This document shows, piece by piece, positions 8,734 to 63,296 of a stretch of DNA of 63,296 bases. This DNA comes from a virus, in IMG/VR virus record IMGVR_UViG_3300001242_000003, positions 1 to 63,296 of that record. The stretch is one strand, 5' to 3'. The translations under genes and the position numbers were made by a program. Under the pieces are notes generated by a model that saw nothing but the letters and a program-made list of their open reading frames with translations, was not told where the DNA came from and made no database searches. Numbering within the stretch: position 1 is the stretch's first letter; each line of letters begins with the position of its first letter.

Positions 8734-9147
8734 GTGGCTGATATACATGTGTATAAAGGTGAAGTAACTAGCGGTGGAGTTGATGGAATTCTAGTATCTG
8801 AAGGAGGAGCTAATACTTCGCCAATTATTGTAGGGCCATTAAACGGAAATAATAATGAAGTTTCAGAAAGTTTGAAGTTAAGTATTCGCTGTGATCCGGA
8901 TTTTTTAACCATAGGAGAAACTTTAATTTCAATACTTGGTTTAACTGCTTCTAAGTGGGCTCTTGCTTTGGATAATGAAGGAGTTCCAGGCATTTTTAAA
9001 GAATATGGTGAAACTTTGGTTATACCAGGGATAATAACTGATGTAAACACTATTTTTTGGACTAAAGCTAAAAGCGATACATTTGATATTAAGCCAGATG
9101 ATTCATACGTGAGTTTTAATGTGCAAGCAGAAGTTAGAAAGGTGTGA
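8734..9147 (+). CDS. Hypothetical baseplate-associated protein
   Basis: A 137-aa protein with a GTG start behind GAGGTG. It is beta-rich with Gly/Ser loops and no cysteines or membrane segment. I do not recognise a family. Its place between baseplate J and the spike gene suggests a virion protein, possibly an adaptor that carries the beta-helix spike. Confidence 0.65.
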   Translation: MADIHVYKGEVTSGGVDGILVSEGGANTSPIIVGPLNGNNNEVSESLKLSIRCDPDFLTIGETLISILGLTASKWALALDNEGVPGIFKEYGETLVIPGIITDVNTIFWTKAKSDTFDIKPDDSYVSFNVQAEVRKV

Positions 9148-11914: not shown

Positions 11915-12445
11915 TTGTTTGGAAGTTCAAATTTTCTAGTTTTTAATGAAAGTTTATTAAATGTTCAGGATGATCCAACTTATACAGCTGATACTACGAG
12001 AATTAGTGGGCTTAATAACGGAATAGCTTCAACAGTTCTTCATAATAAGCTTTTTCGACAAGTGTCGATCATGGCTGCGGCGCTTGGAGAGCTTATTTCA
12101 ACACAAGGAAGAATTGCAAGTGACGCCAATCTTAATTTATTGTCTCAGGAGTTGCAAAAATCTATAGTTACCACTGGGGCTGACAATAAAGCAACTAAAA
12201 ACATTAATTCAATTTTGATTGATGTTGATACGAGGACAGTAACTATAAATAGATCCGGCGGAGAAATAAATGGAATTACAATTAAAGATCCAACTGATAA
12301 TTCAGTTGTTGAGGAAATTGTAATAAACAGGACTTCAGGATTACTTTCATCTATCCAGAAGACAGTAGGTAGCAAAGTAATAGCTTATACTGTTGTTAGA
12401 GATGGCGGCGGTTTAATTTCTGGTATAACGAAAAATGTTACATAG
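11915..12445 (+). CDS. Tail fibre protein, attachment-domain type
   Basis: A 176-aa protein starting at TTG 11915 behind AAGAGGTGAT. The segment YTADTTRISGLNNGIASTVLHNKLFRQVSIMAAALG, cited here in part as YTADT and LHNKLFRQVS, is characteristic of short fibre or attachment proteins of Bacillota phages. The C-terminal half has short beta repeats (NRSGGEI, NRTSGLL). It probably connects the fibre to the baseplate. Confidence 0.7.
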   Translation: MFGSSNFLVFNESLLNVQDDPTYTADTTRISGLNNGIASTVLHNKLFRQVSIMAAALGELISTQGRIASDANLNLLSQELQKSIVTTGADNKATKNINSILIDVDTRTVTINRSGGEINGITIKDPTDNSVVEEIVINRTSGLLSSIQKTVGSKVIAYTVVRDGGGLISGITKNVT

Positions 12446-12456
12446 GAGTAGTGGTA

Positions 12457-13017
12457 ATGATGAGTACGGAAAATTTAGCTTTAATCGTTGATATTTTAGA
12501 TAAGATTGGTAGCGGTGCTGATTTAGCAGGATTAAGTACATTGTTTTCAAAGTTGGCACAGGTAAAAGATTATATTGATCAAATAGGAACAACAATAGGG
12601 CCAGCAAGCCCATCTTCCGGCGGAACTGATACTCTGTTTAAATATTTGAAAATGATTGATAATAAATTGCTATTTGGCGGGCAGATTAATGTTATGCAAA
12701 TTGAGCGGTCTACCTTGCCAGTGGCAACTTTAACAACAATATTTTCAGTTGCTGGTTCAGGCATTTTAGAATCGGTTTTTATTGAGCATTTTGGTTCGGT
12801 AATATATCCAAATATTTCATTTAGAATAATGGTTGACGGGGTTCAAGTTTTCAATACTCAAGGAAATATTGCGGCAAGTCAAATTCTTGGCTCTTCACCA
12901 AATACTCCTTTGCAAACAAATTTAAGATTTACTTCAAGTTTTGAAATAATTGGCTTAAATAATGATGTTGATGCTCATGATGTAGTTCCTTGGATAGTTT
13001 GGAGAACAGAAATATAA
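12457..13017 (+). CDS. Hypothetical tail-tip protein
   Basis: A 186-aa protein starting at ATG 12457 behind AGGAGTAGT. The first 50 residues are helical, then a Gly/Ser/Pro linker, then a beta-rich domain (SVAGSGILESVFIEHFG, FRIMVDGVQVF). It stands between the fibre and lysis genes. I see no family motif; a distal tail or fibre component is the best guess. Confidence 0.6.
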   Translation: MMSTENLALIVDILDKIGSGADLAGLSTLFSKLAQVKDYIDQIGTTIGPASPSSGGTDTLFKYLKMIDNKLLFGGQINVMQIERSTLPVATLTTIFSVAGSGILESVFIEHFGSVIYPNISFRIMVDGVQVFNTQGNIAASQILGSSPNTPLQTNLRFTSSFEIIGLNNDVDAHDVVPWIVWRTEI

Positions 13018-13060
13018 AAAAATGTTTGGTTGTTATTCGGTTACCGGAGGTGGAGGGGAT

Positions 13061-19313: not shown

Positions 19314-20197
19314 GTAGTTTAATAGATAACATCAAGGATCAGATTAAAAGATCTGGCGCTAATAAAGGCAAATTTTTATATTTTAAGCCTGGTGTGAAGG
19401 TAAGGATTAGGTTCCTTCAAGACCTGGATGACGGCATGAAAGTAAAATTTCATGATAGTTTTACGCTTGGTGTAAATGTACCATGCCAAGAAGTATTTGG
19501 CCGTGATTGTGATAAGTGCGAAATGGAAGGTTTAAGGCACCGGGACCAATATATTTGGTCAGTTTTTGACCATGACGCAAAAGAAACAAGATTTTTAATG
19601 GGAGCAGCAAATAATGCTTCACCCGTGCCAGCGCTTGTAGGAATGTATGAAGCTTATGGAACTTTGACTGATAGGGATTATGTTATAACCAAAATAGGTC
19701 AAGGTACTGCAACAACTTATCAAGTAGTACCAATGGATAAGGTTAAGTTCCGTAATGAAAAAGCTAAGCCATATAGCGAGAAAAAGACGTTGGAATTGCT
19801 TGATAAAGCTTTTCCGGATGAAGATAGAGATGATGAAGATGACAAACCAGCTAAAGGGAATAAAAAGCCAAGTAAATCAAATAAAAATAAAGAAACTGCT
19901 GATTATGATGATATGTCAGCTAAAGAATTGTATAGCCTTTGCCAGGAGCGTGATATTGCTTGTAAGCCAAGGAAAAGTGAAGATTATTATATTGAATTGC
20001 TTGAAGAATGGGACGAAGAGCAGAAAGAAGCGGATAGCGATGGTAAGGTAGATTATGAAGAGCTGTCTGCTAAAGAGTTGTACAAGCTTTGCCAAGAGCG
20101 AGATATTGAATGCAAGCCCAGAAAAAGTGAAGATTATTATATTGAGATTTTGGAGGAAGATGATGCTGAAAATGGCGGAGACAAGGATGATTGGTAA
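19310..20197 (+). CDS. Phage single-strand DNA-binding protein with tandem SAP-like tail
   Basis: A 295-aa protein starting at TTG 19310 behind AGGAGG and overlapping the primase stop. Residues 1-160 match phage gp32-type SSB proteins (YFKPGVKVRIRFLQD, a Cys cluster CDKCEMEG). The acidic, Lys-rich tail holds two nearly identical 34-residue copies (MSAKELYSLCQERDI and LSAKELYKLCQERDI) that look like SAP/HeH-type DNA-binding motifs, and it ends in Asp/Glu residues as SSB tails do. Confidence 0.75.
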   Translation: MSSLIDNIKDQIKRSGANKGKFLYFKPGVKVRIRFLQDLDDGMKVKFHDSFTLGVNVPCQEVFGRDCDKCEMEGLRHRDQYIWSVFDHDAKETRFLMGAANNASPVPALVGMYEAYGTLTDRDYVITKIGQGTATTYQVVPMDKVKFRNEKAKPYSEKKTLELLDKAFPDEDRDDEDDKPAKGNKKPSKSNKNKETADYDDMSAKELYSLCQERDIACKPRKSEDYYIELLEEWDEEQKEADSDGKVDYEELSAKELYKLCQERDIECKPRKSEDYYIEILEEDDAENGGDKDDW

Positions 20198-20540
20198 AAA
20201 AAATGGATTAACTAATATTTTTAATCAGCAAGCTGCATTTCAAAAGCTTATAACTTCAATTGATTTGCCTAGCGATAATGTCGTTTGGTCATCGTATCAT
20301 ATTTTAGGACTTCAGGAAGAAATTGGCGAAGTGCTTAAAGCAGATAAACGCTGGAAAACTCATAGAAATGCAGCATATGATCCTGAAAACAAATTAGATG
20401 AAATAGTTGATTGTTTTATAACGCTTGTTAATATAGCTTTGTTTTCCGGGTTTGGTTCGCAAGAAATTTATAGTGCTATTGAAAATAAAATTAAAGAGAA
20501 TGTCGAAAGGTTGGATGATAGTGATGGAGAACAACAATAG
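20163..20540 (+). CDS. MazG-like all-alpha NTP pyrophosphohydrolase
   Basis: About 125 aa, starting at ATG 20163 six bases after GGAGG (ATG 20187 is an alternative). The metal-binding motifs EExxE (Glu52, 53, 56) and ExxD (Glu80, Asp83) define the MazG/dimeric dUTPase/T4 dCTPase superfamily, which hydrolyses (d)NTPs to (d)NMP and PPi. It overlaps the carbamoyltransferase gene. In this context it could remove dCTP so that modified cytosine is used and dCMP is supplied. The substrate is inferred from context. Confidence 0.8.
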   Translation: MLKMAETRMIGKKNGLTNIFNQQAAFQKLITSIDLPSDNVVWSSYHILGLQEEIGEVLKADKRWKTHRNAAYDPENKLDEIVDCFITLVNIALFSGFGSQEIYSAIENKIKENVERLDDSDGEQQ

Positions 20541-22305
20541 CGAAAAGTTTTATCTTGGTATTAGCTTAGGGTTTAATTCTTCGGCTTGCGTTATGTCAAA
20601 TAAACGTGGTTTGATAGCAGCTGTTTCACAAGAAAGGTTATGTGGAATTAAGAATACGAAAGAGTTCCCGGTTGATGCGATAATTGAATGCATCAAATTG
20701 GCTAAAGCTCCTTTTAGTTATAAATTTGATGTTGGTATAAGCCATTACCAGCATATAACAGCGGAAAATATTTACAAGTATCTGCCGGAAAAATATAAAG
20801 ATTATATGGGAACTTTTCATAATGTTTGTTTATTCGGCCTTGATTATGTTGAAGATTGCCTAAAAGCCTTGGCTTGCGTTTTAGTAAATTCAATAGTCAG
20901 GGTTGAACATCATACAGCTCATGCTTATGCAGCTTTAGTCATGCATGGCAAAGATGCAAATATGTCGGATGATAGAAATATATTTGTTACTTGTGATGGT
21001 TTTGGTGACGGAACCAGCGGAAGGATAGTGCTTGGCTCCGGTGAGGTGCTTGCTAGTTTAAGGCTAGTTGATAGCGTCGGATTGTTTTATCAGTTTGTAA
21101 CTGGAGCTTTGGGTTATAAAGAACATCAACATGAAGGTAAAATAACTGGCTTGGCTGCGTTTGGTAAGCCAATTTATGTAGAGAAGTTAGTCGAAGTATA
21201 TAGCCAAATGTTATCAGTCGATTTAAGTAAAGAGCAAAGCTCAGAGGTAAAAGCGAGTAATATTGAAAACTTTAATTTATTTTTACGCTTAAAAGATAGC
21301 ACTTATAAGCTAGTTAATTGCTTGCTTGGTAGCGGAGCATTGCCGGAGGATATTGCTGCTTCGGTTCAATTCTTTACTGAAATGGTAATAATTAATTGGC
21401 TTAATAGCACTATTGAAAAATACACTAAAAAAACTATTAATTTCCCTTTGTTTAATGTGTATTTTTCAGGCGGGCTTTTTGCAAATGTAAAACTTAATCA
21501 AAAGATTCATGCTTTACCTTGGGTTGAAAATATTTATGTATGTCCAGCAATGGGTGATGAAGGAACTTGTATTGGTGCAGCTTTTCACGCTATGAAAGAA
21601 AAAATAGGTATGGAAGTTATAGAAGCTAATAGCTTTCTAAAGCATCAGGTTAGCCCGTATCTGGGAACAAAGCATGAATATAGTGCAGAGCAAGTAATAT
21701 TGGAATTGGCTAATTTAAGAGCTTCTGAAAGTGTTTGTGTACATGAGCTTGAAGATGCACAACTTATTAATTGCATTGCTAAACATCTTACGAATAAGAA
21801 AATAGTTTGTTTATTCCGTGGCAGAATGGAATTTGGTCCAAGAGCGTTAGGTAATCGGTCAATACTTTATCATTGCACGGACCGAACAGTTAATATGTGG
21901 CTAAATGAACAACTTGGTAGAACTGAATTTATGCCGTTTGCTCCGATATGCAAAATGGAAAATGCTGGGGCTTTATTTGACAAAATTGGCGCTGAGCAAA
22001 CAGCGGAATATATGACAATAACATTTAATTGCTCAGATGAATTCAAAAATAACTATCCAGCAGCCTGTCATATAGATGGAACTGCCAGACCGCAGTTAGT
22101 AACGAAAGAAGCTAATAGATTTATGTGGAACTTATTGGACAAGTATGAGTCAATTTCATGTCAGAAAGTCCTAATTAATACTAGCTTTAATTTGCATAAT
22201 TTTCCTATCATTGAAAGCCCTGAGGATGCAATTCAAAGTTGGTTTGATTCAAATACTGATGTATTAGTAATAAATAATGTAGTCATAGAGAGGATGGTAA
22301 AGTAA
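20524..22305 (+). CDS. NodU/TobZ-type carbamoyltransferase
   Basis: A 593-aa enzyme. The N-terminal Kae1-like domain shows the metal motif HxxxH (His129, His133), Asp158 in CDGFGDG, and Asp345 in GDEG. The C-terminal domain has the family signature FRGRMEFGPRALGNRS (431-446) and a late VLINTSFN. The family forms carbamoyladenylate from carbamoyl phosphate and ATP and moves the carbamoyl group to a hydroxyl. Phage members are known to carbamoylate 5-hydroxymethylcytosine. It sits between MazG and the dCMP hydroxymethylase-like fusion, which strongly suggests DNA base modification. GTG 20521 is an alternative start. Confidence 0.92.
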   Translation: MENNNSEKFYLGISLGFNSSACVMSNKRGLIAAVSQERLCGIKNTKEFPVDAIIECIKLAKAPFSYKFDVGISHYQHITAENIYKYLPEKYKDYMGTFHNVCLFGLDYVEDCLKALACVLVNSIVRVEHHTAHAYAALVMHGKDANMSDDRNIFVTCDGFGDGTSGRIVLGSGEVLASLRLVDSVGLFYQFVTGALGYKEHQHEGKITGLAAFGKPIYVEKLVEVYSQMLSVDLSKEQSSEVKASNIENFNLFLRLKDSTYKLVNCLLGSGALPEDIAASVQFFTEMVIINWLNSTIEKYTKKTINFPLFNVYFSGGLFANVKLNQKIHALPWVENIYVCPAMGDEGTCIGAAFHAMKEKIGMEVIEANSFLKHQVSPYLGTKHEYSAEQVILELANLRASESVCVHELEDAQLINCIAKHLTNKKIVCLFRGRMEFGPRALGNRSILYHCTDRTVNMWLNEQLGRTEFMPFAPICKMENAGALFDKIGAEQTAEYMTITFNCSDEFKNNYPAACHIDGTARPQLVTKEANRFMWNLLDKYESISCQKVLINTSFNLHNFPIIESPEDAIQSWFDSNTDVLVINNVVIERMVK

Positions 22306-23820
22306 ATGCCGTATTTAAAAGTTAATTCAGTAACAGAAGCTTTTAGCTCGGTTGTTGCACTTTTGGAAGCAGAAGGTTTTGAAACTGCCCCTAGAGGAAT
22401 GAAAATAAAAGAAGTGCTTAATTGTTGTATTGAAGTAACTAATCCCCGGGATAGAATTGTACAAAATCCTGAAAGGCAAATGAATTTTTCTTACGCTGTT
22501 GGCGAATTGCTTTGGTATTTAAGCGGGCGCAATGATGTAGGTACTATGGAGTATTATTCAAAGAAAATGGCTAATTTTTCAGACGATGGTAAAACATTAA
22601 ATTCAGCTTATGGCCATAGAATTTTTGGTAATAATGCTAAGATTGGCTTTAACCAATGGGAACATGTAAAGCAACAGCTTATTGCCGATCCGGATTCACG
22701 GCAAGCAATAATTCATTTGCATACTCCAAATAACCAGAAAACAAAAGATGAAGTTTGCACGTTAAGCTTGCAATTTTTGCTCAGGCATGGTAAACTAAAT
22801 CTTATTGTTAATATGCGCTCAAATGATATTGTGCTTGGCTTTACGTACGATGCTTTTGCGTTTACTATGTTGCAGGAAATTATGGCAATTGAACTTGGCG
22901 TTGAATTAGGAAGCTACTTCCATAATGCTGGAAGTATGCACATGTATGAGCGTGATTTTAATACTTATAGTAAAATAACTTATAAAGTTAATTCAATGCC
23001 GATGTTGCCGCTGAACATGGTTTTAACGGATTTTGATCGCTTAATTGATTATGAAGCTTTTTGCAGGGATTTTAATAATAGTTTTAAAGAAGTAATTGAT
23101 TATACCACCTCAATGTTAGTTGCAAGTAAAAATAGTAATGAAAGAATATTTATGATTTCTTTAGCTATTTGGACAGTTATACGGCGCGGATATAGTTTCG
23201 CTTGTACTAAATATGTTAATAATTTTATTAATATAAGCCGCAGAATTGATGAGCGCTTTGCAGATATTCTTGCAGCAGGAAATAGTGTTTTTACTAAGAA
23301 CGATTTTAAAGTAATAATTGAAGGTGTAGATGCTAGTGGTAAAACATCTTTAGCGAACGCTTTAGCGCTTAATATTAATGGCTTAGCTTTATCAATACAG
23401 CATTATGACGCACCAACTAAAAACTTTGCTTTTTATTCAGCGTATAAAAGCGCCTTACAAAGTAAAGTTAGCACTATATTTGATAGGTTCTTTTTCTCAG
23501 AAATTGCCTATTCAAAAGCTATAGGCAAAGAATGCAGAATTAACGAAGTTAGGCAAAACTTGCTCTTAGGTATTATTTCAATATCTGGTTTTGTATGCGT
23601 TTTCTTTGTGTTTAATGACTTAGAGCTTGATTTGGTAATAAGCCGAATGGATGCTAAAGATTATGATAAATATGTTAAATCAGGGCTTATTTACAAAATT
23701 AATAGTGCTTACAAAGATCTTTGTGAAAGGGCTGAAAGGCATGGTTGCAAGGTGATAAAAGTAACTAAAGCTAATTATGATGTTGAACAAGTTATTGAGC
23801 AAATTAAAGGAGCTTTATAA
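22306..23820 (+). CDS. dCMP hydroxymethylase-like enzyme fused to P-loop nucleotide kinase
   Basis: A 504-aa fusion. Residues 1-300 are a thymidylate-synthase fold: Glu67 in GELLWYL, catalytic Cys151 in DEVCTLS, RSND (171-174) and His212/Tyr214 (MHMYERD). The residue eight after RSND's Asp is Asp182, where dUMP-specific TS has Asn; Asp is diagnostic of dCMP hydroxymethylases such as T4 gp42. Residues 330-504 are a thymidylate-kinase-like domain with Walker A EGVDASGKTS (339-348) and DR at 393-394. It would make 5-hydroxymethyl-dCMP and phosphorylate it. The ATG follows the carbamoyltransferase stop without a gap. Confidence 0.88.
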   Translation: MPYLKVNSVTEAFSSVVALLEAEGFETAPRGMKIKEVLNCCIEVTNPRDRIVQNPERQMNFSYAVGELLWYLSGRNDVGTMEYYSKKMANFSDDGKTLNSAYGHRIFGNNAKIGFNQWEHVKQQLIADPDSRQAIIHLHTPNNQKTKDEVCTLSLQFLLRHGKLNLIVNMRSNDIVLGFTYDAFAFTMLQEIMAIELGVELGSYFHNAGSMHMYERDFNTYSKITYKVNSMPMLPLNMVLTDFDRLIDYEAFCRDFNNSFKEVIDYTTSMLVASKNSNERIFMISLAIWTVIRRGYSFACTKYVNNFINISRRIDERFADILAAGNSVFTKNDFKVIIEGVDASGKTSLANALALNINGLALSIQHYDAPTKNFAFYSAYKSALQSKVSTIFDRFFFSEIAYSKAIGKECRINEVRQNLLLGIISISGFVCVFFVFNDLELDLVISRMDAKDYDKYVKSGLIYKINSAYKDLCERAERHGCKVIKVTKANYDVEQVIEQIKGAL

Positions 23821-23822
23821 TT

Positions 23823-26510
23823 ATGTGGTTTGAACTGCATAAGCACACACATTTTAGTTTATTTGATGGATTTGGTCTTATAGGTGATGTTGTAAAGCGG
23901 GCTGTTGAATTGGACATGCCCGCTTTGGCGGTAACAGACCATGGAAATACCTGCGGATTAGCTAAACTATATTTCACTTGTAAAGACAAAGGTATTAAGC
24001 CAATACTCGGTGTAGAAGTTTATTTTCAGCCTAAGTTCAATAAAGAAAATAAAACTAATCATCTATGCTTATTTGCTAAGAATCAGCAAGGTTATTCTAA
24101 TATAATGAGGATAATAACTGAAGCAAATGAGGAAAATTTTTATTATAAAGGTATAGTAACCTTTGAGCTGTTAGAAAAGTATAATGAAGGTGTGATATGT
24201 TCTTCAGGTTGTTTAGCTGGCTTTATACCGCAAGCAATTTTAAATAATAATAAAGAGCTTGCGGTAAAAGCTATCAAGAAATTTAAAAGAATATTTGGTG
24301 AAGATTTTTACTTTGAAATAATGCCTATACCAGTTGATAAAGTAGGAACACAAGAGAAAGTTAATAAAATCATGTATAAACTTGGTGAAAGGTATAATAT
24401 TGGTTGTATACCAACGACTGATTCGCATTATACTAGAGCGGAGGATTTTCCATCGTATAAGGTGATGCATAAAATAGCTGGCACTAAGTATGATATAGAG
24501 CAAACATACAAAGACCGGTATATGCACAGTGAAGCCGAGATAAAGGAACGGCTTCATAACGAAGGATTTACTAAAAGTCAAGTAAGAAATATGCTCAATA
24601 ACATGGAAGAAATTTATAACAAAATAAACATTGAGCTTGACTTTTCAGAATCAATTCCAGTGCTTGGCAGTGGTGATTCGTATGAGCAACTTAAAGAGCG
24701 TTGCAAAGAAGCTCTTAAAAAGTATTTGAAAAAGCGCGGTTTAATGCATAAAAAACGTACATATTTAGACAGGTTGAGAACTGAACTAGAAGTTATTGAA
24801 TCGCACCACTTATCAGACTATTTTTTAATAGTAGCTGATTATGTAGATGAAGCTAAAAGACGTGATATATATGTTGGTCCTGGTAGGGGCTCAGTATGTG
24901 CTTCACTTATAGCTGATTTACTTGGTATAACAGATGTTGATCCAGTTGAAATCGGAAATGACTTTGCTAGATTTTTGCGCTTGGACAAAAAGAAAATGCC
25001 GGACATTGACTTGGATTTTGAATATGGCAAGCGTGATGAAATAACTGAATATTTGTTACAAAAGAATAAAGGAAACTCAGCGCAAGTTATTACTTTTGGA
25101 TTAAATCGTACTAAAAATCTTTGTAATGATTTGATAAAGGTGTTTGAAGTTTACGAAGATGATGCAGTTATTTTTCGTAAATATATTTCTAAGCATGTAG
25201 ATGATAATCGTCTTGTAAAAATGATGGACATTGATTATGAGGCGATACTTAAAGAGCCTGGAATGGCGCAAATAAATAAAAAGTATGACAATATAGTAAT
25301 CCATTTTTGTAAGCTGTATGGACAAATAAAGTATTATGGAACACATGCTGCTGGTGTAGTTATTACCAATGGACCAATTAAGAACTATATTTCCTTGGTA
25401 AAATACAAAGGTAAGTTGGCAACATGTTACGACAAGTTTGATTGTGAAGATCTTGGATTCTTAAAATTTGATATTCTCGGTTTAAAGACGCTAAATATTC
25501 TGCATGATATCGAGGAGCTTACGGGAGAACGATATGATTATAGGACAGCACCAGAAAGAACTAAAACTGCTATTTATGAAGGTTTTAGAACTGGTAAAAC
25601 TTCAGGTGTATTTCAATTAGGAAGCGGAACGGCTAAAGATATTTTAACCTCAATAGGCACGGATAATTTGCAGGATTTAATTGCAGCTATATCATTAAAT
25701 CGTCCAGGGCCTTTATCATTAACAATGCATGAAAAGTATGCAGAGAATAAATTAAATCCGCCTAAAGATTCCGCTTGGTATGAATATACGGCAGACACAA
25801 ATGGCACTTTAATTTACCAAGAACACGTTATGCAAATATGTAAAGGCCTTGCCGGATTGGACTATAATACGGCTGATAAAATATTCAAATGGCGCATGAC
25901 GGAAGAAGAAAGAAACAAAGTTTGTAATTTATTTGTAGAAGGAGCACACAAAGTTAGTGGAGTTGATAAGCAAGAAGCTCATGATTTATTCTATAGCATG
26001 TCAAGCTATTTGTTTAATAAAGGTCATGCTTCCGGCTATGCAGTAATTTCTGAATGGCATATGTACCACAAACTTTTTCATCCAACTGAATTTTGGTATG
26101 CCAGCATGAAGTATGAAATTGATGAGAAGAAGAAGTTTGAATTTCAGGCTGAAGCCGCTGCTGATGGTGTATTATTTTTCTTACCTCATGTAAATTATAC
26201 AGCTGATTATTCAATCCGCAAAGTTGAAGGCGAAAGTGTAGTTCAGCAAGGTTTGACTTCAATCAAAAACGTAGGTCAAAAAGCTGCTGAAACTATTGAA
26301 TATGAGCGCAGGCTTAATGGTTTTTATAAAAGCTATGATGACTTCTTGGATAGAGTTCCAAAGCGCCAAGTAAATTCAAGAGTAGTTGAATGTTTGCTCG
26401 AACAAGGTGCATTGGAATTTAACAAGAAAACTTATTTAAAGCGTACTATTAAATACAATTCTGTGCTATATATGAAAGGCCTTAGAGTTAAGAATAATTG
26501 TACTATATAG
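23823..26510 (+). CDS. DNA polymerase III alpha subunit, DnaE-like
   Basis: An 895-aa replicative polymerase. It has an N-terminal PHP domain (HKHTHFSLFDG, TDHGN, GVEVYF), the catalytic PDIDLDF near residues 393-399, GPGRGS, the third Asp in KFDILG near 547, and a helix-hairpin-helix (IKNVGQKAA) near 813. It is shorter than host DnaE because the C-terminal OB and tau-binding parts are missing. Being in one operon with the modification enzymes suggests it accepts the modified nucleotide. AAAGGAG serves as ribosome site. Confidence 0.92.
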   Translation: MWFELHKHTHFSLFDGFGLIGDVVKRAVELDMPALAVTDHGNTCGLAKLYFTCKDKGIKPILGVEVYFQPKFNKENKTNHLCLFAKNQQGYSNIMRIITEANEENFYYKGIVTFELLEKYNEGVICSSGCLAGFIPQAILNNNKELAVKAIKKFKRIFGEDFYFEIMPIPVDKVGTQEKVNKIMYKLGERYNIGCIPTTDSHYTRAEDFPSYKVMHKIAGTKYDIEQTYKDRYMHSEAEIKERLHNEGFTKSQVRNMLNNMEEIYNKINIELDFSESIPVLGSGDSYEQLKERCKEALKKYLKKRGLMHKKRTYLDRLRTELEVIESHHLSDYFLIVADYVDEAKRRDIYVGPGRGSVCASLIADLLGITDVDPVEIGNDFARFLRLDKKKMPDIDLDFEYGKRDEITEYLLQKNKGNSAQVITFGLNRTKNLCNDLIKVFEVYEDDAVIFRKYISKHVDDNRLVKMMDIDYEAILKEPGMAQINKKYDNIVIHFCKLYGQIKYYGTHAAGVVITNGPIKNYISLVKYKGKLATCYDKFDCEDLGFLKFDILGLKTLNILHDIEELTGERYDYRTAPERTKTAIYEGFRTGKTSGVFQLGSGTAKDILTSIGTDNLQDLIAAISLNRPGPLSLTMHEKYAENKLNPPKDSAWYEYTADTNGTLIYQEHVMQICKGLAGLDYNTADKIFKWRMTEEERNKVCNLFVEGAHKVSGVDKQEAHDLFYSMSSYLFNKGHASGYAVISEWHMYHKLFHPTEFWYASMKYEIDEKKKFEFQAEAAADGVLFFLPHVNYTADYSIRKVEGESVVQQGLTSIKNVGQKAAETIEYERRLNGFYKSYDDFLDRVPKRQVNSRVVECLLEQGALEFNKKTYLKRTIKYNSVLYMKGLRVKNNCTI

Positions 26511-27315: not shown

Positions 27316-28254
27316 TTGGCAAAAACTAATAAAGAAAAAATAATGCAGCTATGTAAGCAGATTGACCAAAAGGAAGGTGCAGGAAGTATATTTAGCCTAG
27401 GCTCTAAAAATTCAGTGTTAAAGATTCCTCGTTGGTCAACTGGCATTGAGGATCTAGATCACATACTGGGTGGCGGAATGCCTGAAGGTAGAATAATTGA
27501 GATATTTGGCCCAGAATCAAGCGGGAAAACTAGCTTAGGTTACCATTTGTCCAGTCTACATGAGCTTTGCTTAAATATACCGATTGAAGGAACTTTTGAT
27601 GCTAATAGAGCTAAGCAGTTTGGTAATAGACCTAAACAAATGCTTGTATATAGAGCAAAATATGGTGAAGCAGCACTTAATAGGGCTATGAAGTTTGCTG
27701 AATCAGGTATTCCATTAATCGTCATTGACAGCGTTCCGGCATTAAAGCCTAAGGAAGATATCGAAAAGCTCAAGAAAAATATCAACAATGATAAAGAGGA
27801 AAATGATCGTATGGGCGGAGTTGCCCGTTTGCTTCATAGGTACGTGCCGATGCTCGAAGAAGTTGTTGAATTTTCCGGCACTACAATTATTTTTATTAAT
27901 CAGGTGCGGGATAAAATGGATGCAATGTTATTTGGTGAAAAAACAGATACACCAGGTGGTAGGGCCTTAAAATTTTATAGTAGTATTAGATTACAAGTAG
28001 CTAGAAAAAGCTGGATTGAAATACCAAATAAAGATCCAAGAAATTCCGCTGTTAATGAAAAAGTTGGTATGATTATGAAAGTTAAAGTAATTAAAAGCAA
28101 AGTTTGTAATCCAATGGGTGAAGCTGAATTGCCAATGTTCTTCAAGCATAATTTTGTTAGCTTTGATGATATTTCAGTGCTTAGAAAACAGCTTATGGCT
28201 GATAGCAGGAAAAAGCGTGGCAATAGTGAGGAGGATGAAGATGGTGAGGAATAG
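27316..28254 (+). CDS. recA: RecA recombinase
   Basis: A 312-aa protein starting at TTG 27316 behind AAAGGGTG. Walker A GPESSGKTS at 65-73 is identical in place and sequence to bacterial RecA. It also has LIVIDSVPAL (Walker B), the L1-like MGGVARLLHR region and FINQVRDK (L2 entry), ending in an acidic tail. It is about 40 residues shorter than host RecA, and the region usually occupied by MAW/YID motifs around residue 100 reads GTFDANRAKQ. It promotes strand exchange for phage recombination and repair. Confidence 0.9.
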   Translation: MAKTNKEKIMQLCKQIDQKEGAGSIFSLGSKNSVLKIPRWSTGIEDLDHILGGGMPEGRIIEIFGPESSGKTSLGYHLSSLHELCLNIPIEGTFDANRAKQFGNRPKQMLVYRAKYGEAALNRAMKFAESGIPLIVIDSVPALKPKEDIEKLKKNINNDKEENDRMGGVARLLHRYVPMLEEVVEFSGTTIIFINQVRDKMDAMLFGEKTDTPGGRALKFYSSIRLQVARKSWIEIPNKDPRNSAVNEKVGMIMKVKVIKSKVCNPMGEAELPMFFKHNFVSFDDISVLRKQLMADSRKKRGNSEEDEDGEE

Positions 28255-28654
28255 ACCTAGTAAGGATGCTTATTATTTTGGCATAGCGGAAGCAGTAAGT
28301 AAGCGTAGTACATGCCTCAGGCGCCAATATGGCGCAGTTATTATCAAAGATGATGAAGTAATAGCGACAGGATATAATGGCTCTCCTAGAGGTTCTGAGA
28401 ACTGTTGTGACAGTGGTATATGCTATAGAATAGATAACGACATTCCTCGTGGTACGCAATATGAAAAATGTCAAAGCGTTCATGCAGAACAAAACGCTAT
28501 TATATCAGCAAGGCGCTCAGATATGAAGGGTGGCATATTATATTTATATTGTTTTGATGTCATACTTGGTAAAGCAATGCGACCAGAACCATGTTTAATT
28601 TGCCAGCGTTTAATTAAAAATGCAGGATTAGAGGTTAAGCTATGTCAATGTTAA
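28241..28654 (+). CDS. dCMP deaminase
   Basis: A 137-aa zinc deaminase starting at ATG 28241 behind GAGGAGG and overlapping the recA end. Zinc ligands are HAE (His81, catalytic Glu83) and PCxxC (Cys118, Cys121). The extra Cys residues near 55-61 (NCCDSGIC) correspond to the second zinc site of phage dCMP deaminases. It converts dCMP to dUMP for ThyA (36758-37588). Together with the MazG-like enzyme and the dCMP hydroxymethylase-like fusion it closes a phage-directed dCMP supply route. Confidence 0.9.
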   Translation: MVRNRPSKDAYYFGIAEAVSKRSTCLRRQYGAVIIKDDEVIATGYNGSPRGSENCCDSGICYRIDNDIPRGTQYEKCQSVHAEQNAIISARRSDMKGGILYLYCFDVILGKAMRPEPCLICQRLIKNAGLEVKLCQC

Positions 28655-31239: not shown

Positions 31240-31392
31240 ATGCCAGATAGAAGTTGTCATGGGTGGAAGCTTAAAGATAATTATGAGCCAAAGCCAATGG
31301 AAAAAGTTATCGCTAAATGTTGTGGTGTCTGCAAATATTATTGCCCTGTGTATTGTTGCAAACATCCTTTATATAAGCCATGCAAAGACTAA
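31240..31392 (+). CDS. Cysteine-rich small protein
   Basis: A 50-aa protein with AGGAGG ribosome site. Nine Cys, including KCCGVCKYYCPVYCCKH, indicate a metal-binding knuckle. No family recognised. It overlaps the next gene by 13 bases. Confidence 0.6.
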   Translation: MPDRSCHGWKLKDNYEPKPMEKVIAKCCGVCKYYCPVYCCKHPLYKPCKD

Positions 31393-32231
31393 CTACTATT
31401 ATCAATATAAACTTAACTAAGCAGCCGTATGACGTTTATATAGGCCGTGGAAGCTTGTTTGGTAATCCGTTTTATATAGGAGTCCATGGCAATCGTAAAG
31501 AAGTAATAGAGTTATACAAACAATACATACTAAATAGCCCTGAACTACTCAAAGCTGCTAAAGCACTAAAAGGAAAAGTATTAGGCTGCCATTGTAAACC
31601 TGCTCCCTGCCATGGTGATATACTTGTAAATATAGCGAATGGAGTTTTAAAAGTGTATAATAAATTAATTATTGGCATTGATCAAAGTTACACCCGTACC
31701 GGCATTGCTATAGCTGCTGATGGTAAGCTATTAAAGGTTAGTAGCTTAGCCTTCAAAGGCCTTCATAGCCCCACAGAGAAGCGTAAACATCTAACTAATG
31801 TACTAACCCGTATACTTGACCTTAACGCTCACAAGGCTTCTGAGTGCTATGTCATATGCGAGCGTATAAGAACTTTTTCACACAACAACAATGATAATAG
31901 TCAAAATCAAATGTTTATTAGCACTAATTATATTAAGTCAGCTGGCGCTTTAGTAGCTACTATTGTAGATGTTGCTAATAGTTATGGTGTTAAAGTTTAT
32001 AGCGCAGACACAAGAAGTTGGAAAGCTCAAATTGTTGGTACAAGTAAAGCCAGTCAGTCCGGTAACAAAAAACTTGCTACTATTAAGCATGTTATAAATT
32101 TAGGTTTTAGCTCCAGTGTTACCTCAGTTAACAGAAATGGTAAAACTGTTTATGACGATGATGCCTGCGACGCTGCTTGTATTGCTCTATATGGCTTCCA
32201 CAAGAACCAGAAGTTGAAAATAGAGAAGTAA
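31380..32231 (+). CDS. DUF4326-RuvC-like fusion
   Basis: A 283-aa protein. Residues 15-85 match DUF4326 (YIGRGSLFGNP, LGCHCKPAPCHGD), a small phage-associated domain of unknown function. Residues 95-283 are an RNase H-fold RuvC-type domain with acidic residues Asp101 (GIDQSYTRTG), Glu161 (ICERI) and Asp260/263 (DDDACDAA). The RuvC part should resolve Holliday junctions during recombination or before packaging. The fusion itself is unusual. Confidence 0.75.
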   Translation: MQRLTTIININLTKQPYDVYIGRGSLFGNPFYIGVHGNRKEVIELYKQYILNSPELLKAAKALKGKVLGCHCKPAPCHGDILVNIANGVLKVYNKLIIGIDQSYTRTGIAIAADGKLLKVSSLAFKGLHSPTEKRKHLTNVLTRILDLNAHKASECYVICERIRTFSHNNNDNSQNQMFISTNYIKSAGALVATIVDVANSYGVKVYSADTRSWKAQIVGTSKASQSGNKKLATIKHVINLGFSSSVTSVNRNGKTVYDDDACDAACIALYGFHKNQKLKIEK

Positions 32232-36402: not shown

Positions 36403-36761
36403 GAAAAGTAGATATTAAAACAGTTTGCAAGTATAATGGCCATAGTATTAAAGCAAATGAGGCAGTTGATCTCTCATTGAAGTTCGGATATGATCAACTT
36501 GTAAACTACATACAATTGGTTCAGCTGTTGAATGAAAATATTAATATTATTTCAAAAATAGGCGATAGCAAGCCTATAAAGCTTGGAATATATACGCTGA
36601 AAGAAGTTAAGATTGATAATGACGGTGAAGCGGTTATAAAGTTTAATAGTACACTTAGCTATGTAGAAGCTGACAATTTAAACAAGTTAGCTGGTGAGAT
36701 GCTTAAAGTGCGCTTTAAGGCTGACGTAGAAATAGAAAATGATGGAGAGGATGAAGATTGA
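36390..36761 (+). CDS. Hypothetical protein (123 aa)
   Basis: GTG start overlapping the previous gene. It is acidic at the end (EIENDGEDED) with alternating strands and helices. No family recognised. It overlaps the ThyA start by 4 bases, so these genes are co-translated. Confidence 0.6.
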   Translation: MAEVRKVDIKTVCKYNGHSIKANEAVDLSLKFGYDQLVNYIQLVQLLNENINIISKIGDSKPIKLGIYTLKEVKIDNDGEAVIKFNSTLSYVEADNLNKLAGEMLKVRFKADVEIENDGEDED

Positions 36762-37588
36762 GCAAAGCTGATAATATGTTCATTAAAATGTGCAGGGATA
36801 TTCTTTCAAATGGAATTAGCTCAGAAGGTGAACAGGTAAGGCCAAAATGGGAGGATGGAACTTCAGCTCATACTATTAAAAAGTTTTGTGTTGTTAACAG
36901 GTATGACTTATCAAATGAATTTCCTATACTTACTTTAAGGCCTACTAATTTAGAAGCTGCAATTGACGAACTGCTTTGGATATGGCAGAAGAAATCAAAT
37001 AATATTAAGAATCTTGGCAGTAGTATTTGGGATAGTTGGGCTAATGAAGATGGCTCGATAGGAAAAGCGTATGGATATCAGTTGGGTATTAAGCATGAAT
37101 ACCCAGAAGGATTATTTGACCAAGTTGACAGAGTATTGTATGATTTAAAGCATAATTCCTATAGTAGAAGGATTATAGTGAATATGTACAACCACAATGA
37201 CCTACATGAAATGAACTTATATCCTTGTGCATATAGTATGACATTTAATGTTACCGGTAAGAAACTTAATGCGATACTAAATCAGCGATCACAAGATGTT
37301 TTAGTTGCAAATAACTGGAATGTATCCCAGTACGCTATATTAATTCATATGTTCGCACAAGTAAGCGATCTTGAAGTTGGCGAATTTGTTCATGTTATTG
37401 CCGATGCTCATATTTATGATAGGCATGTTCCGCTTGTGAAAGAGCTTATTCAGAGAACTTCATTTCCAGCTCCGAGACTAAAAATAAATGTAAGTGTAAA
37501 AGATTTTTATCAATTTAAAGTAGATGATTTTATGCTTAAAGATTATAAGCACGGAATGCAGATTAAAAATATTTCAGTAGCTATTTAA
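36758..37588 (+). CDS. thyA: Thymidylate synthase
   Basis: A 276-aa ThyA, TTG start. Conserved sites: Glu71 (DELLWIW), catalytic Cys157 (NLYPCAYS), QRSQD (176-180) and Asn188, the Asn that binds the uracil ring of dUMP, then ADAHIYDRH. It methylates dUMP with methylene-tetrahydrofolate. The Asn contrasts with Asp182 in the TS-like part of the fusion at 22306, so the two paralogues should use dUMP and dCMP respectively. The C-terminus ends with the usual Ala-Ile type residues. Confidence 0.92.
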   Translation: MSKADNMFIKMCRDILSNGISSEGEQVRPKWEDGTSAHTIKKFCVVNRYDLSNEFPILTLRPTNLEAAIDELLWIWQKKSNNIKNLGSSIWDSWANEDGSIGKAYGYQLGIKHEYPEGLFDQVDRVLYDLKHNSYSRRIIVNMYNHNDLHEMNLYPCAYSMTFNVTGKKLNAILNQRSQDVLVANNWNVSQYAILIHMFAQVSDLEVGEFVHVIADAHIYDRHVPLVKELIQRTSFPAPRLKINVSVKDFYQFKVDDFMLKDYKHGMQIKNISVAI

Positions 37589-40931: not shown

Positions 40932-41150
40932 TTGCCAAGGTTAACAGCTACCGGCATAATTAAACAAGCAATTAAGGAAGCTAGTTCAATTAATCCTGGT
41001 ATTATAAGTCTGCAGATTGAGGAAATAATGTGGGAGGAATTGAGTAAAACTCATGCCTATGTAAACAATAGCTTAGTGTTTACCAGATTAGCACGTCTTG
41101 GATTTAATAAGTTTTCAGATGTAAAGAAAATGGTCAAGAGGCTAGTTTAA
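40932..41150 (+). CDS. Hypothetical protein (72 aa)
   Basis: TTG start behind GGGTGAT. A basic helical protein (TGIIKQAIKEASSINPG, EEIMWEELSKTHAYVN) resembling a small wing-helix type, but no firm motif. It overlaps the methyltransferase start by one base. Confidence 0.6.
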   Translation: MPRLTATGIIKQAIKEASSINPGIISLQIEEIMWEELSKTHAYVNNSLVFTRLARLGFNKFSDVKKMVKRLV

Positions 41151-41680
41151 TGCAAAAGTATAATATTATTTATGCTGACCCACCGTGGGAATATAAAGAC
41201 AAAGCGCTTGCGGGAAACCGTGGCGCAGGTTGCAAATATAAAACAATGAAGATTAAGGACATTCAGGCTTTACCAGTACAAAATATGGCTGCTAGTAATT
41301 GTGTTTTGTTCATCTGGGTTACGTGGCCACATTTGCAAAACGGAATTAATACGCTTGAAGCTTGGGGTTTTGTCTGGGTAAAGAAAAACAAAAAGACTGA
41401 TTCATTATTTTGGGGTATGGGAAATTGGACTAGAAGTAATTCTGAGTTTTGTCTTATTGGGGTACGTGGCAAGCCAAAAAGAATTTCGTCTTCAGTTCAT
41501 TCAGTAGTTGTTGAACCGATAGGTAAGCACAGTGAAAAGCCAAATGAAGTTAGGCAGCGTATTGTAAAACTCATTGGTAATAAGCCGCGTATAGAATTGT
41601 TTGCCCGTGAAAAGTTTAAAGGTTGGCATGTATGGGGAAACGAAGTTGAATCAAGCATTGATATAGAAGATTATGAATAG
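41150..41680 (+). CDS. MT-A70 family N6-adenine DNA methyltransferase
   Basis: A 176-aa protein with the catalytic DPPW at residues 10-13 (IIYADPPWEY), LFIWVTWPHL, then EFCLIGVRGKPKR and HSEKPNEVRQRIV and IELFARE, the complete MT-A70 order. It methylates adenine N6 in DNA. No restriction partner is present, so it probably protects phage DNA against host endonucleases, alongside the proposed cytosine modification. Confidence 0.92.
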   Translation: MQKYNIIYADPPWEYKDKALAGNRGAGCKYKTMKIKDIQALPVQNMAASNCVLFIWVTWPHLQNGINTLEAWGFVWVKKNKKTDSLFWGMGNWTRSNSEFCLIGVRGKPKRISSSVHSVVVEPIGKHSEKPNEVRQRIVKLIGNKPRIELFAREKFKGWHVWGNEVESSIDIEDYE

Positions 41681-42873: not shown

Positions 42874-43362
42874 ATGCGAATAGCTAATATAATCCAGTTA
42901 AGTGTAGTTGATGGGCCTGATATAAGGCTTCCTATATTTTTTCAAGGGTGCCAGCATAATTGCAAGGGTTGCCATAATCCTGATACACATAAAGTAGATG
43001 GTGGTTACGAAATAGATGTAAAATCATTAGCTAATATAGTTCTAATGTATTTAGATAATAACCCGCTAATAAAAGGTGTAACTTATACGGGTGGAGAGCC
43101 TTTATTGCAAGCGTATAATCTAGAAACATTAACTGATTTAATAAAAGAAGCAAAACCGGAAATCAACTTTATGCTATATACTGGTTTTATGCTTAAAGAT
43201 GCTTATGTGATTTACTATAGCTTAGTCAGCAAAATGGATTATGTAGTTGATGGAAGATATGTTGAAGAGCTTCGTGATATTAGCCTTAAATTTAGAGGAA
43301 GTTCTAACCAACGAATATATCAAAATGTTTTTGGCACGTTCGTAGATATAACGAATGCATAG
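42874..43362 (+). CDS. nrdG: Anaerobic ribonucleotide reductase activating protein
   Basis: A 162-aa radical-SAM protein. The iron-sulfur cluster Cys26, Cys30, Cys33 form CxxxCxxC (GCQHNCKGCHNP), with VDGP near the start and TYTGGEPLLQ as SAM-binding motif. It creates the glycyl radical in class III reductase NrdD. No NrdD gene is present in this complete genome, so it must act on the host enzyme. It implies replication in an anaerobe. Confidence 0.9.
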   Translation: MRIANIIQLSVVDGPDIRLPIFFQGCQHNCKGCHNPDTHKVDGGYEIDVKSLANIVLMYLDNNPLIKGVTYTGGEPLLQAYNLETLTDLIKEAKPEINFMLYTGFMLKDAYVIYYSLVSKMDYVVDGRYVEELRDISLKFRGSSNQRIYQNVFGTFVDITNA

Positions 43363-44851: not shown

Positions 44852-45385
44852 ATGCAAAATGTTATTATTAGTCCTAAATGGTTTTTTGATCCCAATGGTC
44901 CTCATGGTATTGCACATACAAAACGCGTAATGATACTAGCTGAAACCATAGCTATAATGTACGGTTGCAATAAGCCAGAAATACAGATACTTAGAAAAGC
45001 AGCAGCTTACCATGATATTGGTAGGGAAAATAATGAAGTAGATGAAAAGCATGGATTTAAGAGCGTAAATAAGGCAATAAAGTTAAAGCTTTTAAACCCA
45101 CATGATTCAGAAATTGATGATATAGCAACTGTTTTAATTCATGAACATTCTTTATCAGATTTAGAAAATTTGCCTGATTCTATTACTGTGAAGTTACTTA
45201 ATATTTTCAAAGATGCAGATGCTTTGGATAGAGTAAGGTTTGGTGATAAAGATTGCGGCCTTAACACTAAATATTTAAGAATGGGGCATGCTAAGCAACT
45301 AATTGGATTTGCTAAGATGTTGTTAGTGCAAATGCCTGAAGTAGTGAAGTCAACAGCATTAGAATATTTGTTTAGTAAAAAGTAG
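44852..45385 (+). CDS. HD-domain phosphohydrolase
   Basis: A 177-aa protein with AAAGGAGG ribosome site. Metal ligands: His22 (HGIAHTKRV), His54-Asp55 (YHDIGR), His in LIHEHSL and Asp in FKDADALDRVR, the complete HD pattern of small YfbR/hydrolase-like enzymes. Possible roles are hydrolysis of a nucleotide (dNMP/dNTP) or of a signal such as (p)ppGpp or a cyclic nucleotide. The substrate cannot be read from the sequence. Confidence 0.82.
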   Translation: MQNVIISPKWFFDPNGPHGIAHTKRVMILAETIAIMYGCNKPEIQILRKAAAYHDIGRENNEVDEKHGFKSVNKAIKLKLLNPHDSEIDDIATVLIHEHSLSDLENLPDSITVKLLNIFKDADALDRVRFGDKDCGLNTKYLRMGHAKQLIGFAKMLLVQMPEVVKSTALEYLFSKK

Positions 45386-61362: not shown

Positions 61363-62574
61363 ATGGGATATAAGCAAATAGGAATAGCAACCAAAACAAT
61401 AGACAGTAGTAAATTAACTACCGCATCCGTCACACCAGATAAAACAGATTTCATCAAAGAAGTTAAAAATTTATTTGACCATACGGATGCAAAAGTACTT
61501 AACCACAGAATTTTAGTAGAAACAGGTGGCACAGACGGTACAGTCTATAGCGACACACGTATGACCACAGGTTATATCCCTGTCAGACCAGGAGATAACT
61601 TAATATGTTCATATTTGAGCACCTCCGGGGTAGTAAGTACAGTTGTTTATTATATCGTAGCAGTTTACGACAAGAATCAAAAACGAATAGTTTTTACGAC
61701 GGTAACCAGTTCAACCTATATTGTACCTGCGAATGCTGAATATGTGCGTTTCTCCTTTAATACTTCTTATTACGCGAGAAAAGCATATGTTCAAGTGGCT
61801 GTCGGAACTGAAATAAGTTTTCCGACAAAATATAAGAAACAAATGGATATATCTCTCTTGGATAAACCATACAAACCTGTTAAGGATACAATAGCTGAGT
61901 TAGTGCAAAATAGTTTATTATTGACTGGCACAAGCACAGTTAACATTAAACTTGTCGGTGATAGTATCACTCATGGGGTAGGCGGTACAGGGTTTTTAGA
62001 GGACGGTAATTTAATTATCTCTGGTTTTAACCGTAACCCTAATGGTTATTGTTGGGCGAAACTTTTTAAAGAATATATGGAAGCAAAATTTAATTGTTTG
62101 GTAACAAATAACGCCTGTCGTGGCACACACTCAGGTTATTTAAGACAATATTGGGATACTCTAGTCAGTCCCACTGATGATATTGTCATATGTATGTATG
62201 GCACTAATGACCGTGGGTCAGGTGCCTACAGTGCATTATTAGAAAATTTACAGCTTTTTCTAGACAGAGTGGATATAGATAATCAAAAAATAATCTTGAT
62301 GAGTAGTATTCAAGCATCTGTAACAAATGATGCAACTTACACCTTTCATATGGAAGATGTTGACAATGCAATAATGTCAATAGCAGCCGCAAACAACGTA
62401 GAATATATTTCTTTATTTAAGTTGTTTAGAGATTATATTGATGCGAGAGGTATTAGTTTTGATACACTCTCTGCTGATGGATTACACCCTAACGATGCGG
62501 GTTATGATATTATGTTTTATCTTATTTTAAATGCTTTGGGACTGGGTAATAAAGTTAGTGGTGCTACTTGGTAA
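61363..62574 (+). CDS. Tail fibre protein with SGNH/GDSL hydrolase domain
   Basis: A 403-aa protein, GGAGGTGG ribosome site. Residues 1-185 form a beta-rich domain with repeated Thr/Val/Tyr strands (TTGYIPVRPGDNL, YVRFSFNTSYY), as in receptor-binding proteins. Residues 190-400 are an SGNH hydrolase: Ser201 in GDSITHG, Asn282 in GTND, Asp372 and His375 in DGLHPND. It likely removes acetyl groups from host surface glycans. It is placed between tail tube and tail chaperone, a position not expected for a fibre. Codon use is less AT-rich than in neighbours. Copied at 1-1179. Confidence 0.9.
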   Translation: MGYKQIGIATKTIDSSKLTTASVTPDKTDFIKEVKNLFDHTDAKVLNHRILVETGGTDGTVYSDTRMTTGYIPVRPGDNLICSYLSTSGVVSTVVYYIVAVYDKNQKRIVFTTVTSSTYIVPANAEYVRFSFNTSYYARKAYVQVAVGTEISFPTKYKKQMDISLLDKPYKPVKDTIAELVQNSLLLTGTSTVNIKLVGDSITHGVGGTGFLEDGNLIISGFNRNPNGYCWAKLFKEYMEAKFNCLVTNNACRGTHSGYLRQYWDTLVSPTDDIVICMYGTNDRGSGAYSALLENLQLFLDRVDIDNQKIILMSSIQASVTNDATYTFHMEDVDNAIMSIAAANNVEYISLFKLFRDYIDARGISFDTLSADGLHPNDAGYDIMFYLILNALGLGNKVSGATW

Positions 62575-62611
62575 GTTAACTAACGAAGGTACGTAATGGA
62601 GGTGAAGTAAT

Positions 62612-62761
62612 TTGTTTCCATCAATTTATAATCAAAAACAAATAGATAAACTAAAACATGGCAATATTAAATTTAAAATTATTTATAAAGGTACTAACAT
62701 AAACGGTGAAAAATTTTATCATATACGTATTGATTCCTTACCGTTTATTGTCATGCATTAG
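62612..62761 (+). CDS. Small hypothetical protein (49 aa), right-end copy
   Basis: Second copy of the TTG-start ORF at 1217-1366, identical in sequence. Confidence 0.6.
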   Translation: MFPSIYNQKQIDKLKHGNIKFKIIYKGTNINGEKFYHIRIDSLPFIVMH

Positions 62762-62769
62762 GCTGTTAC

Positions 62770-62795
62770 CCAACTAACGAAGGTGCGTTAGTTTT
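62770..62795 (+). terminator. Cassette-end hairpin, right-end copy
   Basis: Second copy of the hairpin at 1375-1400. Confidence 0.65.
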
Positions 62796-62827
62796 ATAAT
62801 ATAATAAGCGAAAGGATATATAAAATA

Positions 62828-63256
62828 ATGAATAAGCGTGTTTTGTTTAAAACATTTGAATTAGATGGCAGAAAGTGGCGTATTGGGAAATTTAATGCGA
62901 TGGTAGGTTCATATATTGCATATAAACTTATGGCCGAAGTAATGCCGTTAGGAATAGCGCAACAAGCAGGCATACCGGTTCCAGCTGGCGGAAAATCAAT
63001 GAGTAAGGCAGATTTTATAGAATTACAAAAAGATTGTTTATCTTGTTGTTATGAATTTCTTCCGGCTGGTCCAGCTCCAGTTATTAATGAAAACGGAACT
63101 TTTGGAGTTGAAGACTTAGAAAACAATGTAAAAGTTGTTATGGCTTTAACGATTCAAGCTTTGATTTTTAATGTTTCAGATTTTTTTACAGAAAACCTCT
63201 TGAGTTCACTAGCCGATTCAATGAAGACTTTAATCCCGCCCGTTGCAAAAATATAA
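62828..63256 (+). CDS. Tail assembly chaperone, right-end copy
   Basis: Second copy of 1433-1861. The slippery T7 is at 63181-63187; the -1 frame extension runs off the end of the window. Confidence 0.7.
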   Translation: MNKRVLFKTFELDGRKWRIGKFNAMVGSYIAYKLMAEVMPLGIAQQAGIPVPAGGKSMSKADFIELQKDCLSCCYEFLPAGPAPVINENGTFGVEDLENNVKVVMALTIQALIFNVSDFFTENLLSSLADSMKTLIPPVAKI

Positions 63257-63296
63257 ATGAGTTTCTTTATGCTCCGGTAATAGCTGGAGTTTGGAA

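Follow-up and report, generated by a model that had tools for sequence, protein, structure and literature searches.

The window, that is, the whole stretch of DNA analyzed here, comprises 63,296 nucleotides. Its bases 1 to 1901 recur exactly at positions 61396 to 63296. With this terminal repeat, in direct orientation and 1,901 bases long, the window has the appearance of a complete phage genome, 61,395 bp in size, although its record is classed with virus records lacking end repeats. A frame on the plus strand at positions 22306 to 23820 encodes 504 amino acids followed by a stop codon. A preliminary description had read this frame as two enzymes in a single chain. The chain is real: its 504 residues contain no stop and both domains are matched significantly. 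Domain 1 (residues 1 to 329; 22306 to 23292, plus strand), which includes a helical C-terminal extension, is a putative MilA-like dCMP 5-hydroxymethylase, assigned from matches to PF00303 and MilA. Domain 2 (residues 334 to 504; 23305 to 23817, plus strand) is a TMK-fold P-loop nucleotide kinase, assigned from PF02223, phrog_761 and the folds of YorR and TMKs. The residues singled out in the preliminary description, i.e., Glu67, Cys151, Asp182, the Walker A motif at 339 to 348 (EGVDASGKTS; 23320 to 23349, plus strand) and the DR motif at Asp393-Arg394 (23482 to 23487, plus strand), all lie where it had placed them. The 60 residues before the P-loop contain one in-frame ATG, GTG or TTG codon, Met283, with three of six bases matching AGGAGG; given this lone candidate start and its partial match, the kinase seems unlikely to be translated on its own.

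The fusion gene is embedded in a set of plus-strand genes for nucleotide metabolism and DNA replication. It starts directly after the stop codon (22303 to 22305) of a gene for a TobZ/NodU-like carbamoyltransferase (20452 to 22305; PF16861, 181 bits; PF02543, 92 bits). These coordinates describe the longest frame, for which an ATG at 20524 is, by eye, the likelier start. Further upstream lies a gene for a MazG/dUTPase_2-like pyrophosphohydrolase (20055 to 20540; PF08761, 23.3 bits; phrog_173). Only 2 bp downstream of the fusion begins a PHP-containing DNA polymerase III alpha (23823 to 26510; Pfam), and a dCMP deaminase follows at 28118 to 28654 (Pfam; phrog_174). The phage also carries a separate, ordinary thymidylate synthase (36758 to 37588, plus strand), which served as an internal control since it has Asn188 at the position of Asp182. 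The gene set of 5-hydroxymethylcytosine (hmC) carbamoyltransferases is thus present, with a carbamoyltransferase adjoining an Asp-type thymidylate synthase, accompanied by MazG and deaminase. Carbamoyltransferase, Asp177-type thymidylate synthase, PRA-PH and deaminase domains co-occur in modified-cytosine phage contigs, and one such carbamoyltransferase acts on 5hmdC single-stranded DNA and on 5hmdCTP, according to passages of an eLife 2021 study (PMC8670742). Elsewhere in the window we noted an MT-A70 methyltransferase (41150 to 41680), suggesting adenine methylation besides cytosine modification, a radical-SAM protein that is NrdG-like by eye (42874 to 43362), and a single frame at 31380 to 32231 in which a DUF4326 domain is followed by a part that appears RuvC-like by eye. 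An HD-domain protein at 44852 to 45385 may be a nucleotide phosphohydrolase; in MW202897 and M6, too, HD proteins adjoin genes that resemble thymidylate synthase.

Domain 1 matches the thymidylate synthase family PF00303 with 96 bits. Among solved proteins, the two MilA entries scored highest by sequence (143.6 and 143.5 bits), followed at a distance by the best thymidylate synthase (69.4 bits) and T4 gp42 (53 bits), and a T4 gp42 query at E 1e-15 retrieved T4 entries only. The domain had been proposed as the counterpart of T4 gp42, which is borne out for the active-site set; the closest solved relative is instead MilA. Structure prediction of both domains had been put forward as a check, and AlphaFold2 returned each of them with confidence. 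The full-length model, built from 23 sequences, reached a mean pLDDT of 85.6 and a pTM of 0.71, at which the geometry of the two domains is not settled by the model. Residues 5 to 329 of this model superimposed on MilA with a Z of 37.6 and an rmsd of 2.0 A over 308 aligned residues (VIA). The preliminary description had ended the domain at residue 300; the domain itself stands, but it runs to about residue 329 and covers all of MilA. Since all of MilA, including its C-terminal extension, precedes the kinase, the hinge is short, comprising only a few residues, and the pLDDT drops below 50 at residues 327 to 331.

We mapped the active site by aligning 11 proteins. T4 gp42 was compared at 11 mapped positions, of which 10 are kept (E67, S100, Y102, R132, D148, C151, S172, D182, H212 and Y214) and one departs, Q133 standing for T4 R124; M88 likewise departs from T4, which has W82. 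The catalytic pair of the thymidylate synthase superfamily is present as Cys151, the nucleophile (22756 to 22758, plus strand; T4 Cys148, E. coli TS Cys146), and Glu67 (22504 to 22506, plus strand; T4 Glu60, E. coli TS Glu58). Asp182 (22849 to 22851, plus strand) occupies the cytosine-selecting position and is the same residue in all 23 rows of a further alignment (A4). A placement of Asp182 away from the pyrimidine site had been named as fatal to the original reading; on the sequence side, the residue shares its alignment column with T4 Asp179 and E. coli TS Asn177. The role of Asp versus Asn at the E. coli position is treated in passages of PMC8670742, PMC5175136 and PMC6400193. Both the phage's own second thymidylate synthase (Asn188) and the dUMP hydroxymethylase SPO1 gp29 (Asn194) have Asn in this column, and we rejected a dUMP enzyme on these grounds.

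Kinship to MilA raises the possibility that domain 1 acts on CMP. As described in parts of PMC5175136, MilA prefers CMP over dCMP 5-fold, a ribose preference that rests on Lys133 and Ala176 and is reversed when these are changed to Arg and Ser. The MilA-type pair is absent from the fusion protein, which has Arg132 and Ser172 in the corresponding positions of the sequence alignment. Together with Asp182, these residues lead us to expect that the substrate of domain 1 is dCMP. Use of dUMP, as by its relative SPO1 gp29, is opposed by Asp182 in place of Asn194. Hydroxylation of dCMP with flavin, as by phage AfhB, is suggested by the rank of AfhB as the next different entry after MilA in the structural comparison (9iqc, Z 23.7, VIA), but that match aligns 216 residues, whereas the match to MilA is full length. 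We therefore regard any of these other activities, on CMP, dUMP or through flavin, as very improbable.

The kinase domain matches PF02223 with 30.3 bits when residues 325 to 504 are searched alone, above the cut-off of 27, and the whole protein scores just below it at 26.1 bits; with so narrow a passage, the substrate cannot be read from the sequence. The domain also matches phrog_761, and all 23 members of the kinase alignment match PF02223 at E 0.1. When modeled separately, it gave a pLDDT of 89.2 and a pTM of 0.86. The best structural match was YorR (Z 16.7), with thymidylate kinases at Z 15.6 and below (VIA), and YorR is recognized by the kinase profile at E 2e-22. Searches with the kinase domain alone yielded no relative among viral contigs and one match at E 0.7 among 50,697 phage records. 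In the whole window genome there is one PF02223 match, namely, the fused domain itself, and the phage carries no other recognizable TMK or gp1-type kinase.

The kinase had been described as the counterpart of T4 gp1. While the proposed step survives, the relatedness does not: gp1 belongs to PF21448 (DNMK), which none of eight records (the window and seven related ones) matched at E 0.001, and here the kinase is TMK/YorR-like. We rejected homology with gp1, as hhalign gave 26.5% and aligned the P-loop only.

A comparison with gp54 of Pseudomonas phage M6 bears on whether the kinase might instead act on DNA, phosphorylating hydroxymethyl-pyrimidine bases after replication in the manner of the 5-hmdU DNA kinases of hypermodified phages. 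The kinase profile aligned with gp54 at 90.3% over 113 columns in hhalign, above its alignment with E. coli TMK (70.8% over 62 columns). However, gp54, which we take to be a 5-hmdU DNA kinase and which as a positive control indeed matches PF18748 (5-hmdU DNA kinase) with 65.1 bits, differs in family from the fused domain. PF18748 is not among the four Pfam families of the window kinase at E 0.1; it is likewise absent from the 25 commonest families listed for the kinase alignment, so that at most three members matched it, against 23 of 23 for PF02223. In the alignment, the DR pair of gp54 is not followed by the F..SE..Y motif of the kinase, and the 50 structural matches listed for the kinase comprise YorR, thymidylate kinases and polyphosphate kinases. 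Moreover, carbamoylation requires a free hydroxyl. We accordingly give a DNA-directed kinase hardly any weight. As a side observation, M6 gp54 (L104:21686-22249) and many other records are annotated as "terminase small subunit" (phrog_800), and because gp54 matches PF18748, this label looks like a propagated misannotation.

Scans with the hydroxymethylase family yielded 91 loci with a hydroxymethylase frame, 80 of them viral (the best 80 of 123) and 11 from genomes. Examining these loci for other fusions of this kind, a check that had been suggested, brought up the same fusion in three other viral contigs (L015, L016 and L017), as frames of 482 to 510 amino acids with 38 to 46% overall identity to the window protein. 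As these contigs come from other samples, a sequencing or assembly error was rejected as the origin of the fusion. Their residues 1 to 225 are 55 to 68% identical to those of the window, while the kinase domains share 26 to 32%. Despite this divergence, the P-loop core, His366, the DR motif, Ser398, Glu399, Tyr402, Asn466 and Tyr469 are invariant in the four forward fusions, as expected of a working kinase.

Three further proteins show the reverse order, with a kinase followed by an Asp-type hydroxymethylase (L074:4320-5651, L077:4485-5813 and L078:4494-5813). All three have Asp at the key cytosine position, and the L077 and L078 proteins are 98% identical. The tree places the forward fusions in a single clade (98/89) beside L023 (91/94); the reverse fusions have a clade of their own (100/100), nested in a different supported group of 10 rows (100/98). 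Because the two types fall in different supported clades, two independent joins in opposite domain orders seem the simplest reading of the tree. Scans with forward- and reverse-fusion profiles found no fusions beyond those already known, so both types are rare in IMG/VR at the sensitivity of the scan. None of 2,496 phage records with a match covered 80% of the fusion. We also found no description of a hydroxymethylase-kinase fusion in the open-licence PMC literature searched, including the searched portion of PMC7824862.

The genes surrounding the fusions are conserved as well. A carbamoyltransferase frame lies directly upstream of the fusion in L015, L016 and L017, and L023 has separate kinase and hydroxymethylase genes with a carbamoyltransferase downstream; in the other 87 of the 91 loci, none was found within the fetched DNA. 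In L023 (4520-8536), a kinase, a MilA-like hydroxymethylase, a protein that is dUTPase-like by eye and the carbamoyltransferase stand in a row, after which we noted by eye a ThyX-like frame at 9147. The isolates Xp15 and Acinetobacter phage MD-2021a possess an unfused set consisting of carbamoyltransferase, PRA-PH, kinase-like protein, Asp-type hydroxymethylase and deaminase. The small protein beside the hydroxymethylase was recognized by the kinase profile in both isolates (E 4e-9 and 1.5e-15, respectively, in a search of seven proteins) and had no Pfam match at E 0.01 in either. In Xp15, this candidate hmdCMP kinase profile thereby picks out gp37 (L113:9115-9597), which is annotated as "putative DNA polymerase subunit." Bacteroides phage BF486P2 presents a different layout, with two Asp-type hydroxymethylase genes (L112:9513-10274 and 12346-13026) near a carbamoyltransferase and a P-loop protein (AAA_28) between the first of them and the carbamoyltransferase; in that first gene, the catalytic Glu column holds Leu, possibly through misalignment.

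We then asked how often such a kinase accompanies each type of hydroxymethylase locus, leaving the window itself outside the 91 loci and measuring gaps on stop-to-stop frames. A kinase was fused or within 150 bp at 27 of 76 Asp-type loci (6 fused and 21 within 150 bp) but at 0 of 14 Asn-type loci (Fisher p 0.008, uncorrected for kinship, some rows being near-copies). The remaining 49 Asp-type loci had no kinase of the fusion-kinase profile within 150 bp, and one truncated locus with an adjoining kinase, whose type could not be assigned, stands outside both groups. Two features make the difference overstate the independent evidence: the 14 Asn-type rows form a group within the SPO1 region of the tree, and the loci that supplied the training kinases for the profile were themselves mostly Asp-type. 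The preliminary description had argued that the fusion ties the kinase to hydroxymethyl-dCMP; the count and the two opposite-order clades lend this comparative support.

The same comparison bears on a more conventional role, in which a general or dTMP-directed deoxynucleotide kinase became fused by accident and serves to raise dTTP, hmdCMP being phosphorylated by the host. Such a role would suit the TMK fold and family, the annotation of YorR-like kinases as thymidylate kinases in SPbeta-type phages, and a phage whose thymidylate synthase and dCMP deaminase would make dTMP. Against it speak the count at Asp-type and Asn-type loci and the fusion in two clades with opposite order; moreover, no TMK-family gene adjoins the thymidylate synthase that the phage encodes at 36758. 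We consider this role unlikely.

The two domains, their catalytic residues, their folds and the conserved gene context are directly supported, and we think it probable that the fusion is a bifunctional hmdCMP synthase and kinase that makes 5-hydroxymethyl-dCDP and feeds a carbamoyl-hmC pathway. The N-terminal domain would convert dCMP and methylene-tetrahydrofolate to 5-hydroxymethyl-dCMP, and the C-terminal TMK-fold domain would phosphorylate hmdCMP to hmdCDP. A phage without gp1 would require an equivalent hmdCMP kinase, and this is the role that we propose for the fused kinase. The nucleoside diphosphate kinase of the host, the enzyme that completes hmdCTP, would then act on hmdCDP, after which the phage polymerase would incorporate hmdCTP. 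The end product, 5-carbamoyloxymethylcytosine, would arise when the adjoining carbamoyltransferase adds the carbamoyl group, whether to hmdCTP or at the DNA level. With both enzymes in one chain, the activities would be present in equal numbers, and hmdCMP might be handed on directly, which is the channeling put forward in the preliminary description. The reaction products, the kinase substrate, the order of steps and the benefit of the physical link are inferred. More tentatively, the fusion, carbamoylation of hmdCTP by the upstream enzyme and the downstream polymerase might form a nucleotide-level assembly line, in which cytosine would be fully modified before the fork with no step at the DNA level, although we are inclined to doubt it.

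The two opposite-order fusion clades suggest that a small kinase family, so far labeled thymidylate kinase or carrying no label, probably supplies the hmdCMP kinase in many modified phages without gp1. The fusion or the kinase family may serve to recognize, from sequence, phages in which cytosine is modified ahead of replication, and the fusion is possibly a ready-made bifunctional enzyme toward 5-hydroxymethyl-dCTP.

Among known systems, MilA (PDB 5jp9 and 5b6d) resembles domain 1 in its fold over residues 5 to 329, including the C-terminal extension, in its catalytic set and in the Asp at the cytosine position; it differs in being CMP-preferring, with Lys133 and Ala176 for Arg and Ser, and in having no kinase. 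YorR of SPbeta (PDB 3kb2 and 2axp), to which the kinase domain is most closely related among solved proteins, stands alone, whereas the kinase here is fused. T4 gp42 and gp1 carry out the same two predicted steps, gp1 phosphorylating hmdCMP and not dCMP according to the T4 record annotation, and the fusion keeps the gp42 active-site set. In T4, however, the two are separate proteins, and gp1 is a PF21448 DNMK unlike the TMK/YorR-like kinase of the fusion. The closest likeness in gene content is to the 5hmC carbamoyltransferase clusters of the eLife 2021 study (PMC8670742), which share the carbamoyltransferase, the Asp-type thymidylate synthase, the dCMP deaminase and a pyrophosphohydrolase, the last being PRA-PH in those clusters and MazG/dUTPase_2-like here. 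The word "kinase" occurs 0 times in the main text of PMC8670742, whereas the present hydroxymethylase carries a fused kinase, and the kinase family is a candidate for the step that has no assignment in those carbamoyl-hmC clusters.
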